64,000 nt of DNA. Origin: Okeania sp. KiyG1 (GTDB taxonomy: Bacteria > Cyanobacteriota > Cyanobacteriia > Cyanobacteriales > Microcoleaceae). How positions within the stretch are numbered: the first letter of the stretch is position 1; each line of letters starts with the position of its first letter. The notes beneath the pieces are model-generated. The model saw only the letters and a list, made by a program, of their open reading frames with translations. It was not told the DNA's origin and made no database searches. The DNA lies in the NCBI RefSeq assembly GCF_014132355.1, contig NZ_BLZO01000086.1, positions 1 through 64,000 of the forward strand. Direction: 5' to 3'. The translations under genes were made by a program, and so were the position numbers. This document shows, one piece after another, positions 58,291-62,623 of this stretch.

Positions 58291-60537
58291 TCAGTATCCA
58301 AGTTTATCCTCTAATTCTTCAATTTTATCCTCCACTTTTTTTCTTTCTCTTTCTTGCTTTTCAATTGTTTTTTCTAATTCAAATTTTTGAGCAGTATGAG
58401 ATGTAATTACTAAATCTTCTCGGAGAGTAGCTATCTTTTCACTATATACGTCATATTGCTTTTGAAGACTATCTAGTTCCTTTTGTAGACGTTGATTTTT
58501 CTGTGCTTTTATAGACTCTTGACTTGGTAATTTAGCCTTTATTTTCTGAGGAGTTTCGATGTCGAAAATATCTAACCAGTCTTCTGTAGTTACAGAATTT
58601 TCAATTGCTTCAACAGCAAGAGGATCGATTATATTCTCAACAAGTAAACGTTTTTCAATCAATTTCTTCTTAATCCTTTCCTCGATGGTATCCTTCATCC
58701 AAAAACTATAAACTGTTAAGCTTTTTGTTTGTCCAATTCTATGAGCTCTATCTTCAGCATTTTGCATCTTTGCTGGATTCCAGAGATGATCGAAGTGGAT
58801 TACATAAGAAGCTTCTGTCAAAGTTAAACCAAAGCCTACAGATTGAATAGTGGCAAGAAAAACATTTATTTCTGGCTTGCTGCGAAAATCACTAATTATT
58901 TGATTTCGGTTTTCCTCAGATATTCCACCCTTGTACAAAACAAACCTAATTTTTTTCTCAGTTAACAATTTTGCAAGTTTATCAACTCCTTCGAGAACAT
59001 ACTGAGAAAATATGATAACTTTCTGGTTATTCGCTACTATTATGCCGAGATATTCAAGCAATCTATCTGTCTTCGGACTGGTGTATTTTTCCTTGGCAAA
59101 GTTACAAATTTGCTTCAATTTGTTGAGGAGGGCAAATATATGAGTTTTTTTAACTTCACTTTGATTACTAATAATAGTTTGAATCTTTTGGCGGCCAGCA
59201 TTTAGAGTTTCATCATAAACCTTTTGTTGATTTTCATCTAACTCTAACCAATCTTCTTGGCAAATTTTTTCAGGCAAATCTTTTAAAACATCTTGCTTTA
59301 ATCTACGCAGTGTATATGGTTCTATCGTACTTCTAATTTCTTCATTTGAGTAATTATTTTCTGTCTTAAATAAATCGGGATTAATAAATGAAAAAAGTGC
59401 TTTAACATCCTCAATACTATTTTCAATTGGTGTACCAGTTAACGCCCATCTGTATTTAGAATTTAACTTGCGGACTGCCTTAGAACGACCAATATTTCTA
59501 TTTTTTATATTTTGAGCTTCATCTAAGATAATACAATCAAATTTATTCAAATCAACTAATACATTTTCTGATAAATCATTACGGAGAGTATCATAGGTTG
59601 TAATATATATATGAGCTGGTATTTCCCATAATTTACGGCGCTTTCTACTACCTCCTCTAACAATTATTACATAAAGTTCTGGTGTCCAAAGATAACAATG
59701 ACCGCTCCATCCTTCTGGCTTTTCAGTTTCAATAGTTAGTGCGACACTACCAATTACTGCTGGAGGACAAACTATCAAAGCAGATTTAATATTTCCTTGT
59801 CTAAAAAGAAAACGTATTGCATTTACTGTTTGGACAGTTTTACCTGTACCCATTTCGTCTGCTAGTAAAGCTGAATTTTTTTTGATTAACCACAATATTC
59901 CTTGTTGCTGATAACCTCTTAAAGGTTGATATAAATCAAACTCATCTGAAAAATCAAATGATAAAGGTGGTTGTAATAAAGGTTTTAATAAATCCCAGTA
60001 ATCTACTTGGTTAGTTAAATAATTAGCTTTCTGAGCTTGCTCGATCAAAAGTTTTTTTTCTTCATTTCCAAGTCCAGATAAGTTTTTTCTAATTTGTTGA
60101 TTTTCATCTTCAAAAACTTTCCCATCAACTTTTTTTACTTTAAGCAGCTCAAGTAGGTTATCTGAAATATGTGTCTGCGGAAATTGAAAATTATATTTAA
60201 GGACTTTAGGCTGAACAATTAATTTTATTAGGTTGCCGCTAAGGTTTTTATTCGTATGAAAAATATCGGTGTAATCAAAATTTGTAGGTTGTGGAATAAG
60301 GAACAGAATTTCAGAAATTTTAAAGTTTTTAGGATTCGGAATTGGCTCATATATTTTTAGTATATTTGGAACAACAAACAAAAGGTTATTAGAAACTCGG
60401 ACTTTTGAAATAGTGAAACATAAATTATTTGAAATTAGTGGAATAGGTATCTCAAAATATATGCGAAAGCAAGCTGGTTTTCTAACTCCAGAAATTTGCC
60501 TGGTTATCTGTTTAGCAAAATAACGTATCACCCCCAT
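58291..60537 (-). CDS. SNF2-family helicase with C-terminal coiled-coil adaptor
   Basis: 748 residues. Residues 1-190 are a novel, beta-rich region. The SNF2 ATPase follows: Walker A LLADEMGTGKTVQT at 224-237, DEAQ box at 339-342 (CIILDEAQN), RWALTGTPIENSIEDVKALF, and in the second lobe VIIFSQYVLEGVDKLAKLL and ENRNQIISDFRS, ending in NAEDRAHRIGQTKSL (arginine finger). The last 66 residues (683-748) are a coiled coil beginning RLQKELDSLQ and containing SEKIATLREDLVITS and TAQKFELEK. The same segment ends the nearby metacaspase. The start is five bases after the stop of the upstream gene, so the two are co-transcribed. It probably acts as the sensor or DNA-engaging part of a conflict system; that role is inferred. 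Confidence 0.85.
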   Translation of the reverse strand: MGVIRYFAKQITRQISGVRKPACFRIYFEIPIPLISNNLCFTISKVRVSNNLLFVVPNILKIYEPIPNPKNFKISEILFLIPQPTNFDYTDIFHTNKNLSGNLIKLIVQPKVLKYNFQFPQTHISDNLLELLKVKKVDGKVFEDENQQIRKNLSGLGNEEKKLLIEQAQKANYLTNQVDYWDLLKPLLQPPLSFDFSDEFDLYQPLRGYQQQGILWLIKKNSALLADEMGTGKTVQTVNAIRFLFRQGNIKSALIVCPPAVIGSVALTIETEKPEGWSGHCYLWTPELYVIIVRGGSRKRRKLWEIPAHIYITTYDTLRNDLSENVLVDLNKFDCIILDEAQNIKNRNIGRSKAVRKLNSKYRWALTGTPIENSIEDVKALFSFINPDLFKTENNYSNEEIRSTIEPYTLRRLKQDVLKDLPEKICQEDWLELDENQQKVYDETLNAGRQKIQTIISNQSEVKKTHIFALLNKLKQICNFAKEKYTSPKTDRLLEYLGIIVANNQKVIIFSQYVLEGVDKLAKLLTEKKIRFVLYKGGISEENRNQIISDFRSKPEINVFLATIQSVGFGLTLTEASYVIHFDHLWNPAKMQNAEDRAHRIGQTKSLTVYSFWMKDTIEERIKKKLIEKRLLVENIIDPLAVEAIENSVTTEDWLDIFDIETPQKIKAKLPSQESIKAQKNQRLQKELDSLQKQYDVYSEKIATLREDLVITSHTAQKFELEKTIEKQERERKKVEDKIEELEDKLGY

Positions 60538-60542
60538 TGATA

Positions 60543-61088
60543 TTATTCTACTCCTTTATCGTTCTGCTCATGCACTTGTTGACAAGCTAACTGACTACGA
60601 TCAAATGGTTCTAGTATATTTCTTCGATAATATATTGATTCTAATTGCTTTGCTATACTTTCTAGTTCTGTACTAAAGTTATCTGAAGTCGTTAAAATCA
60701 GAGGAGGATAATTTGAATTTATAGAATTTAATTGAACCGTGGAAGTTTTGAGACCATATTGTGGTTCGTCTTCCCTAATAACTAAAATAGTAGGTATCTC
60801 CTGTCTAGTATTAATTTCCAGTAATAGTGGTTCTTGTACTAGGATGAGCTGGCTTTTTGTCTCAGTTGCAGTTAACAAAGGAGCTGCTATTAGTTCTACA
60901 AAAATATGCTCTTTCAGCAGTTCACCGTACAAAGTTTCTTGAAAATTTGTAGGACGAATTGGTTCAGTGACTCGAAATTCTAGTGGCTTAGTTTCGTAAT
61001 CTGTAACAAGTATAGAACCTCTAATCACATTTCCGTCTTCAAAATCAAAACAAGAAATAAAAGCTATTTTGATATCGTTAATATTCAT
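60543..61088 (-). CDS. Unknown protein in the helicase operon
   Basis: 181 residues starting MNINDIKIAFISCFDFEDGN. I do not recognise a family. It looks mostly beta-stranded (VIRGSILVTDYETKPLEFRV, HIFVELIAAPLLTA) with a helical C-terminus (STELESIAKQLESIYYRRNI). The helicase N-terminus is also beta-rich, but I see no clear similarity. There is no catalytic motif, signal or membrane segment. It ends TAA five bases before the helicase start, so it is very likely a partner of the helicase, perhaps an adaptor or sensor. Confidence 0.65.
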   Translation of the reverse strand: MNINDIKIAFISCFDFEDGNVIRGSILVTDYETKPLEFRVTEPIRPTNFQETLYGELLKEHIFVELIAAPLLTATETKSQLILVQEPLLLEINTRQEIPTILVIREDEPQYGLKTSTVQLNSINSNYPPLILTTSDNFSTELESIAKQLESIYYRRNILEPFDRSQLACQQVHEQNDKGVE

Positions 61089-61416
61089 TAGTTTCAGAAA
61101 AGAAATAAAAATAAAATTGTTTGACTTTAAGCTTTCAGTACAACCAATATAATTATTTGCGATTTTAGTTGATTTGTCAATTATTTTTACCGAAAAATTG
61201 TGGTTTAAAGCCTCCCCTTTTAAGGGGATAAAAAGCGGTCTCCGGATGGCGTTTGCTATCGCAAAGCTGCGCTAACAGCGGAGCGGCTCTGATAAGAGCG
61301 GTCTCCTCGCCATATCCAATCGACCAAGAGAAGAAAAATTTTCATTATTAGTCAATCCTCTCCTTGAAAAGAAGAGGTAATTATTCATTATTAATTGTTG
61401 AACCATAATATTAGTT
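61089..61416. repeat. Hairpin-type MITE between the metacaspase and the unknown gene
   Basis: An element from about 61190 (ACCGAAAAATTGTGGTTTAA, aagcctccccttttaagggg) to about 61385 (ctctccttgaaaagaagagg) includes 'gccatatccaatcgaccaag' and a small dispersed repeat (aagctgcgctaacagcgg). It probably entered what was once a tighter caspase-unknown-helicase operon. No gene. Confidence 0.65.
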
Positions 61417-62623
61417 TTATTCAAGAATAAATTGTTCAATAGCAGAAATTTCATCCTCCAATTCAGCAATTTTAGCCTCTTCTTCCAAAAGCTGTTTTTC
61501 TAATTGAAACTTAACTGCTGTTGCACTTTCAATAGCTAGGTCTGCTCGCATTCGTTTTGCTTTTTCACTGCGTAAGTTGTAGTCTGATTCTAGGGAATCT
61601 CGTTTCTGCTCCATTCGTCGTCGTTTTCCAGATGTTAAATTAGTTGTTGTACCAATAGATTCAATAAAAGGTAACTCTCCTGTTGTAAACTTACTACCGC
61701 CTGCATAGTAACAGATAGGAAAGTTATCGCCTAGTTCTAAAACCTTATTTACGAAGGGGTGCTGAGAATTATTTGTTCGTTTAGGAACTTGGTCAAATAG
61801 GTAAATCAAGGTATCAAGGATACGAGCATAACCATCCTGATTAACAGATGCTTTACCTTGCATTCCCTCTAGTAAACAAGCAGTAAAGATACTGTAAGGA
61901 TTACCAGTATACGATAATTCATCTTCCCTTGAAGAAGCAACCACTACTCGACCACTACCTGATTTCAAAATATTCATCAGGTCAGGTGGAACAGGTGACT
62001 TAACAAAACTTTTCTCTATATCCTTCAGTTGGGGTAGACCTCCAGCATGACAGCAATCTAAGAAAACCACTAACTTATATCATGTCCGGTTGAACAGTTA
62101 TAAATAAATGACGGAGTCCTCAGGAGTCAACCCACCCCTAACCCTCCCAGGAGGGGAAGTCAGGAGTCAGGAGGAAATAAAGAAGAAGAGAAGGAGAAAG
62201 TTTTTTTATCACTAATTATCCGGACATGATATTACGAGCATTTATAGCTTCTATCTTTTCAGTGAACTCTTTGCCTGAAATTGCTGTATCCTCAAGATTA
62301 TTCATCTTAAAGCCATAAGGAACTAAAAAATACTTTTCCCCATCTGGACTATTAATTTTTACTCCATGACCAGAATAATAGACAATTACCGTAGCTTCAG
62401 GATTGTGACTCACCTGTTCAATTAATGAGTCAAATGCAGCAAGAATCTTTAAACGAGTGGCTGAAGTTTCTGTGAGTAATACTACTTGTTCTTTTGAGTA
62501 AGCTGCTTTACCAGGATAAATCAATATATTATGTAGAGCAGTAGCATCTTGAACAGTAACAGGTAAATCAGCACCGATGCCAATTAGTAATGCGTAGCCA
62601 TTAGAAAAGGTTTGATTAGTCAT
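61417..62623 (-). pseudogene. Metacaspase (peptidase C14) gene interrupted by a MITE
   Basis: The 5' part (62623-62216) encodes a caspase p20 start, GYALLIGIGADLPVTVQDAT, with catalytic His86 in VIVYYSGHG. The 3' part (to 61417) begins MVFLDCCHAGGL, holding the catalytic Cys, then VVVASSREDELSYTGN and GIFT-like SIFTACLLEGMQGKASVNQD, and ends with a 66-residue coiled coil. The two parts are separated by a 154-bp MITE at 62078-62231 with a TTA duplication. Removing 157 bases gives exactly 1050 nt, a 349-residue protein reading NARKLVVFLDCC across the join. As it stands His and Cys are on separate frames. The coiled coil (residues 284-349 of the restored protein) aligns without gaps to the helicase C-terminus. 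Confidence 0.88.
62078..62231. mobile_element. MITE, TATCATGTCCGG family, copy 4, inside the metacaspase
   Basis: Left end TATCATGTCCGG, right end CCGGACATGATA, flanked by TTA (62075-62077 and 62232-62234). It contains 'ggagtcaacccacccctaac', 'tcaggagtcaggagg' and 'tcactaattat'. The latter is shared, in reverse, with copies 1 and 6 (ataattagtga). Confidence 0.9.

Follow-up and report, generated by a model that had tools for sequence, protein, structure and literature searches.

Effector-associated domains (EADs), adaptors already known from comparative genomics, have been proposed to couple proteins homotypically, and in the portion of the source drawn on here EAD9 is placed among those EADs that primarily recruit signalling components, with VMAP, iSTAND, Ubl and GAP1 as examples of proteins bearing the core copy (Kaur et al., 2020, PMC7159879). 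Here, a stretch of 64,000 nucleotides (nt) from Okeania sp. KiyG1 (contig NZ_BLZO01000086.1, positions 1 to 64,000; the window) was analyzed, on the minus strand of which a caspase gene in two pieces is followed, in order of transcription, by a gene for a protein of 181 amino acids (aa; the middle protein) and a gene for a 748-aa SNF2-family ATPase (the helicase). Caspase and helicase end in similar tails, which we call EAD9-like. Judged from its sequence, the new element of the locus is the SNF2 ATPase as EAD9-like partner; of the EAD9-like proteins that were examined, just those of the window and of one sister genome are of this type. We consider it moderately probable that the locus is a decaying conflict module (self-destruct or defence) on the EAD principle, in which an SNF2 ATPase acting as sensor and an orthocaspase are coupled by the adaptor. 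If this is true, the caspase arm gains a plain DNA-sensing input, and the sensing step could be tested by standard ATPase, DNA-binding and protease assays.

The framework of EAD conflict systems, within which the original prediction had placed the locus, was borne out as the published layout of a protease and an adaptor-sharing partner encoded by neighbouring genes. As far as the EAD9 conflict systems are described in the portion used of PMC7159879, they share with the window locus a small terminal adaptor in two proteins encoded nearby, one of them caspase-like, and the cyanobacterial setting; the window locus differs in that an SNF2 ATPase replaces VMAP, iSTAND, Ubl or GAP1, in that a middle protein is added, and in that its tails remain below the Pfam cut-off for EAD9. 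No MoxR-vWA pair was recognised by eye among the open reading frames (ORFs) at 52-64 kb, the flanking ORFs not being scanned. Cyanobacterial pairs of a protease-EAD9 and an iSTAND-EAD9 protein (loci L067, L071, L073, L278 and others) resemble the window locus in the adaptor family and in the combination of a protease with a nearby adaptor gene, whereas their partner is an inactive STAND protein with an N-terminal adaptor instead of an SNF2 protein with a C-terminal one. The Canu caspase-nuclease system likewise groups three genes around a caspase, among them one for a partner enzyme; contrarily, in the excerpt of the source used here Canu has a gated pro-nuclease, whereas Pfam recognised no nuclease domain in the three genes of the window, of which the middle protein is without known fold, and the helicase is a phage protein implicated as trigger outside the system, whereas here it is part of the locus (PMC12799240). 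According to the same excerpt, Canu and the nuclease-protease Hachiman indicate that protease-partner logic can act against phages (PMC12799240). An SNF2 core is also common to the helicase and to ZorD of Zorya, DpdE of Dpd and DrmD of DISARM (238.5 bits with the ZorD model), but these matches centre on the ATPase core, the scores for the NCBIfam equivalogs lie far under their cut-offs, and inspection by eye of the ORFs at 52-64 kb revealed no partner genes of Zorya, Dpd or DISARM.

The shared C-terminal adaptor

The tails of caspase and helicase, ending 2 and 3 residues short of the respective C-termini, align without gaps and in one register only, with 25 of 64 positions identical as originally predicted, an identity reached by none of 40000 shuffles. 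It is very improbable that they are generic coiled coils which are alike by chance or through convergent composition. The tails do match many coiled-coil families weakly, and loose EAD9 matches occur in control genomes, but a profile of 23 tails from other genomes, from which both window tails were excluded (the leave-out profile), recovers both window ORFs with 74.0 bits for the caspase and 58.5 bits for the helicase, and the best of 8000 shuffles, half of which keep heptad classes, scored 27.4 bits against it. Together with the single register, these results led us to reject the generic coiled coil, and a turn motif around KF.L, common to the alignment of 25 tails, speaks against it as well. 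The profile search suggested beforehand as a check for a random coiled coil hence identified the tail as specific (E of 5e-21 and 3e-16). Up to E 10, the leave-out profile found nothing besides these two tails in the six frames of the window. In the search of this 10.98-Mb genome at E<=1e-5, the EAD9-like profile gave two matches 3.1 kb apart (best 16 of 36 candidates), and by our own estimate the chance of two random sites lying that close is near 6e-4.

By sequence, the tails are best described as diverged members of EAD9 (PF19962), an adaptor already known, and probably form a C-terminal helical hairpin. EAD9 is among the best Pfam matches for both, although under the cut-off; since the homologous tail of the iSTAND protein in L073 exceeds it with 26.6 bits, the window tails are termed EAD9-like and not Pfam EAD9. 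A loose Pfam EAD9 search of the genome (E<=1, 81 of 81 candidates) returned 8 matches with the window tails as the two best, and the leave-out profile revealed homology of the window tails to those of iSTAND, trypsin, CHAT and caspase architectures. With the caspase tail alone as query, matches were found in 13 of 291 genomes of the order, and a profile of 25 tails (E<=1e-5) gave at least 96 matches in 41 of 369 genomes of the order, the weakest of which may be due to chance. Another match lies within 10 kb in 46 of the 96 (18 of the strongest 52). Comparison of 47 EAD9-like proteins with Pfam recognised caspase, CHAT, trypsin, TIR, PNP, iSTAND, AAA-like, STAND, FHA, GUN4 and WD40 domains, in some proteins none, and SNF2 in none of the 47. 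The loci fetched are a part of the 96 matches chosen for long ORFs and pairs rather than a full census; among them, 15 besides the window locus carry two EAD9-like genes. In ten of these 15, the partner of a caspase, trypsin or CHAT protein was recognised: iSTAND in eight (L052, L066, L067, L071, L073, L278, L279, L280), FHA in L065 and GUN4 in L277; the other five (L054, L056, L274, L275, L276) have other, weak or unrecognised domains. The window locus also bears the adaptor at the terminus of two proteins encoded close together. The ORFs of 40 further loci, retrieved because of an EAD9-like match (excluding the window locus and L020 of the sister genome G001), gave no SNF2 match, nor was an SNF2 protein with an EAD9-like tail found outside the genus in what was searched. 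Among plasmids, the helicase tail matched six Nostoc records (one NACHT, one EAD1-containing, four AAA-like; none SNF2), and the caspase tail and the middle protein remained unmatched. The EAD9 profile had no match in the PDB at E<=0.01.

Some further observations concern this adaptor family. In L277 (4484-6413), a caspase-EAD9 gene adjoins an EAD9-GUN4 gene, and the two might form a tetrapyrrole-sensing caspase pair; EAD9-like adaptors also occur in a protein with CobW domains and in one with a PNP_UDP_1 domain (L064:7553-8791 and L059:7766-8785). Elsewhere in the genome of the window (L008:720-2226, G000:C128), an intact-looking caspase of 332 aa lies beside a 162-aa ORF with an iSTAND start. 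By eye, both have similar hairpin tails that resemble the EAD9-like tail yet differ from it; Pfam names no EAD there, and the hairpin may be a sister adaptor.

The SNF2 ATPase and the interrupted caspase

Members of the SNF2 family work on double-stranded DNA. The patterns of all SNF2 motifs I-VI were matched in the helicase, which also contains both SNF2-rel_dom and Helicase_C, and its best solved relative is 1z63, a helicase of the snf2/rad54 family. The N-terminus has no match above cut-off in the domain libraries, in accordance with the earlier description of a region without recognised family, and residues 1-223 used as query found this genome and G001 only among 389 genomes of the order. 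By eye, the N-terminus starts like the gene that follows the middle gene elsewhere; homology between the two was rejected at profile probabilities of at most 0.1 in five groups. Comparison of this genome with G001 yielded for the helicase a synonymous substitution rate (dS) of 0.063 and a ratio of nonsynonymous to synonymous rates (dN/dS) of 0.30, and for three flanking genes dS of 0.17-0.18 and dN/dS of 0.08-0.22. Going by these ratios, the helicase protein is still constrained, though less than the flanks. The helicase dS (58291-60537 vs L020:3644-5734), roughly one third of the flanking values, could be due to gene conversion or recent exchange. For the caspase stub of G001, dN/dS was 0.50 over 77 codons, a part of which may belong to sequence beyond the break.

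The caspase gene is split between its His half and its Cys half by an insertion, through which the two motifs of the His-Cys dyad, in orthocaspases part of a single p20 domain, are both present but found on separate ORFs. Because the insertion has many matches in this genome, i.e., at least 43 at E<=1e-8 (best 40 of 1276 candidates; a few are fragments), spanning up to about 178 bp and with inverted ends as read by eye, it is regarded as a short repeated element resembling a miniature inverted-repeat transposable element (MITE). The N-terminal piece has an identity of 65% (133 aa) with the intact L054 caspase and of 59% with that of L277, the C-terminal piece one of 67% (212 aa) with both, and the two pieces, compared separately, abut on both intact caspases. 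The EAD9 caspases of L054 and L277 have differing neighbours, so that a single protease module is combined with more than one partner. As the gene is interrupted, the caspase is very probably inactive in this strain. The interruption by the insertion is a correction to the original prediction.

Retention and decay within the genus

Five other genomes of the genus (G001-G005) were compared. G001 has a helicase with 96% identity across residues 53-748, this part being preceded by a stop; of its caspase only an N-terminal stub is left, next to a piece that by eye is TnpB-like, and it has lost both the middle gene and the C-terminal caspase piece. In G003, between the same flanking genes, a 72-bp stretch of the adaptor-coding end of the helicase adjoins sequence from upstream of the caspase and represents a deletion scar. 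Neither G004 nor G005 matches any of the three genes between the same flanks (lpxB-like, ankyrin and creatininase, named by eye); both carry there another gene, by eye of the mechanosensitive-channel type. None of the three genes was found in the 13 kb fetched from G002, where the gene order differs. As these remnants demonstrate, the caspase and helicase genes had been neighbours earlier, and on the simplest reading of the sequences the ancestor shared by three or more of these species possessed the module, which is now being lost, as we infer to be often the case with costly conflict systems.

Alternatively, helicase and middle gene could form an independent DNA-repair or restriction-like unit, which merely acquired its EAD9-like tail beside an EAD9 caspase and has no working partnership with it now. 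Such independence would be in line with the caspase being broken in both the window and G001 while the helicase is mostly open, and with the difference in dS, suggestive of a past not shared with the flanking genes. Slight support comes from a promoter-like site before the middle gene, which would allow transcription of middle gene and helicase apart from the caspase; the consensus scan detected 4 such sites in the region as compared to a mean of 5.9 in shuffles. However, the only two strong adaptor copies of the genome flank the middle gene, and G001 retains the helicase beside the caspase stub, and we consider an independent unit unlikely.

Proposed function

The adaptor common to both proteins, the pairs of protease and partner in other loci, SNF2 motifs that are intact, the interrupted caspase gene and what is left of the module in sister genomes are all read from DNA or protein sequence; on this basis we propose that the SNF2 ATPase stands where related loci have an iSTAND, FHA or GUN4 protein. 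Its EAD9-like tail would bind that of the orthocaspase homotypically, and contact of the ATPase with foreign or damaged DNA would result in clustering of the caspase via the adaptor, which would turn proteolysis on and, in the last step, stop the cell, with the middle protein, coupled to the helicase, serving as accessory subunit.

In animals, RIG-I-like receptor signalling joins an SF2 ATPase sensor, a homotypic helical adaptor (CARD) and a caspase. A bacterial analogue, in which an SNF2 DNA translocase senses and recruits the orthocaspase via a homotypic helical adaptor and the middle protein was captured as a third subunit, is conceivable but doubtful; the likeness is one of analogy, RIG-I not being an SNF2 protein. 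The roles might also be reversed, with the helicase as effector and the caspase as switch: EAD9 would bring the caspase on infection, and the caspase would cut or release the SNF2 ATPase to act on the invading DNA. We rate this reversal as improbable; the sensor role of the helicase is nonetheless a putative one.

Several points speak against the proposed module, this putative sensor role among them. The scores of the tails with Pfam EAD9 are 17.1-17.9 bits (caspase) and 13.6-18.4 bits (helicase) at a gathering cut-off of 25, and at E<=1 Pfam EAD9 likewise gives matches, all of them under the cut-off, in 10 of the 14 control genomes. No fusion of the adaptor to a core component (VMAP, iSTAND, Ubl, GAP1) was found, caspase and SNF2 protein being the sole matches at E<=1e-5 (best 16 of 36); no third strong EAD9-like tail, and hence no classical core component bearing it, was found in the genome, VMAP and GAP1 not being searched, and the one iSTAND match of the genome, the assembly of which is 92% complete, belongs to another pair. 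Moreover, the two window tails are not mutual nearest relatives (the partner ranks 12 and 6 among 24), a result that gives no sign of co-adaptation. Partner tails are not mutually closest in L054 and L056 either, and they are in L067 and L073. In the portion of the source used here, closest relationship of adjacent EAD copies is described as a tendency (Kaur et al., 2020, PMC7159879), and L054 and L056 indicate that it is not strict. Caspase and middle gene are separated by 328 bp, and a common transcript may not exist. The helicase dN/dS lies above that of all three flanking genes. Finally, the original prediction had regarded the three genes as a kept unit and had named the lack of any other genome keeping them together as an argument against itself; they occur together in no searched genome but this one, where the caspase is broken, G001 and G003 holding remnants.

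The middle protein and the locus layout

The 181-residue protein had initially been taken as one without recognised family. Pfam indeed detected nothing in it; it is, however, not unique and belongs to an unnamed family present in several phyla. The locus thereby points to a multi-phylum protein family for which no name or function was found. The first searches gave the window copy alone, and the idea of an orphan gene was abandoned when a joined query and then profiles found homologues. The family shares the motif D....P..F..T.P..P...Q..LYG and EP..R near the C-terminus. Matches at E<1e-8 were found in 6 of 386 genomes of the phylum besides this one, and in the order of the window the profile found this genome alone (1/243); of the 138 pattern matches in the species collection, 133 could be confirmed, and 80 of the 133 were retained. 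The family alignment A3 comprises 47 sequences, and the titles of the family's records name Gastranaerophilales, Vampirovibrionales, Holophagaceae, Synergistaceae, Armatimonadetes, Thermoleophilia and others. A PDB match of the family to Crov588 (E 8.8e-5) was taken as chance, consisting of ten stretches none of which is significant alone. The viral contigs contained 14 SNF2 loci, none with a match to the middle protein, and no relative of its family.

The SNF2 gene starts 5 nt past the end of the middle gene, a spacing which suggests that the middle protein is an accessory subunit of the helicase; caspase and helicase are 0.9 kb apart with the middle gene in between (Table 1). The middle gene as a regular neighbour of SNF2 genes was rejected: none of the 86 homologue loci (L136-L221, including duplicate records and short contigs) has an SNF2 match at E<=1e-3, and therefore the pairing is seen only in this lineage.

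Table 1. Features of the caspase-SNF2 locus in the window.
Feature	Position	Strand	Evidence
Caspase (orthocaspase), N-terminal piece	62216..62623	-	His motif YYSGHG; Pfam Peptidase_C14 35.4 bits
MITE-like insertion	62085..62225 (limits approximate)	.	Inverted-repeat ends; between His and Cys halves of the caspase
Caspase, C-terminal piece	61417..62070	-	Cys motif DCCHAG and adaptor tail; Peptidase_C14 18.3 bits (cut-off 21.4)
EAD9-like adaptor, caspase C-terminus	61429..61620	-	Leave-out profile 74.0 bits, E 4.8e-21
Promoter-like site before middle gene, TTGACA-17-AATAAT	61152..61180	-	Consensus scan alone
Middle protein, 181 aa	60543..61088	-	Unnamed family; alignments A1 and A3, homologues
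SNF2-family ATPase, 748 aa	58291..60537	-	Pfam SNF2-rel_dom 157.6 bits, Helicase_C 69.4 bits
Helicase N-terminal region, residues 1-140	60118..60537	-	No recognised family
SNF2 ATPase core, about residues 202-640	58618..59934	-	Domain and structure-relative matches
EAD9-like adaptor, helicase C-terminus	58300..58494	-	Leave-out profile 58.5 bits, E 3.3e-16

In 67 of the 86 homologue loci, a same-strand ORF of at least 100 aa directly follows the middle-family gene, some of these ORFs in GC-rich DNA being probably spurious. In Vampirovibrionia, a sigma-70 gene precedes the middle-family gene (one case by Pfam, the others by eye). The middle-family gene and the gene following it in L136-L221 resemble an unnamed two-gene unit that occurs in several phyla.

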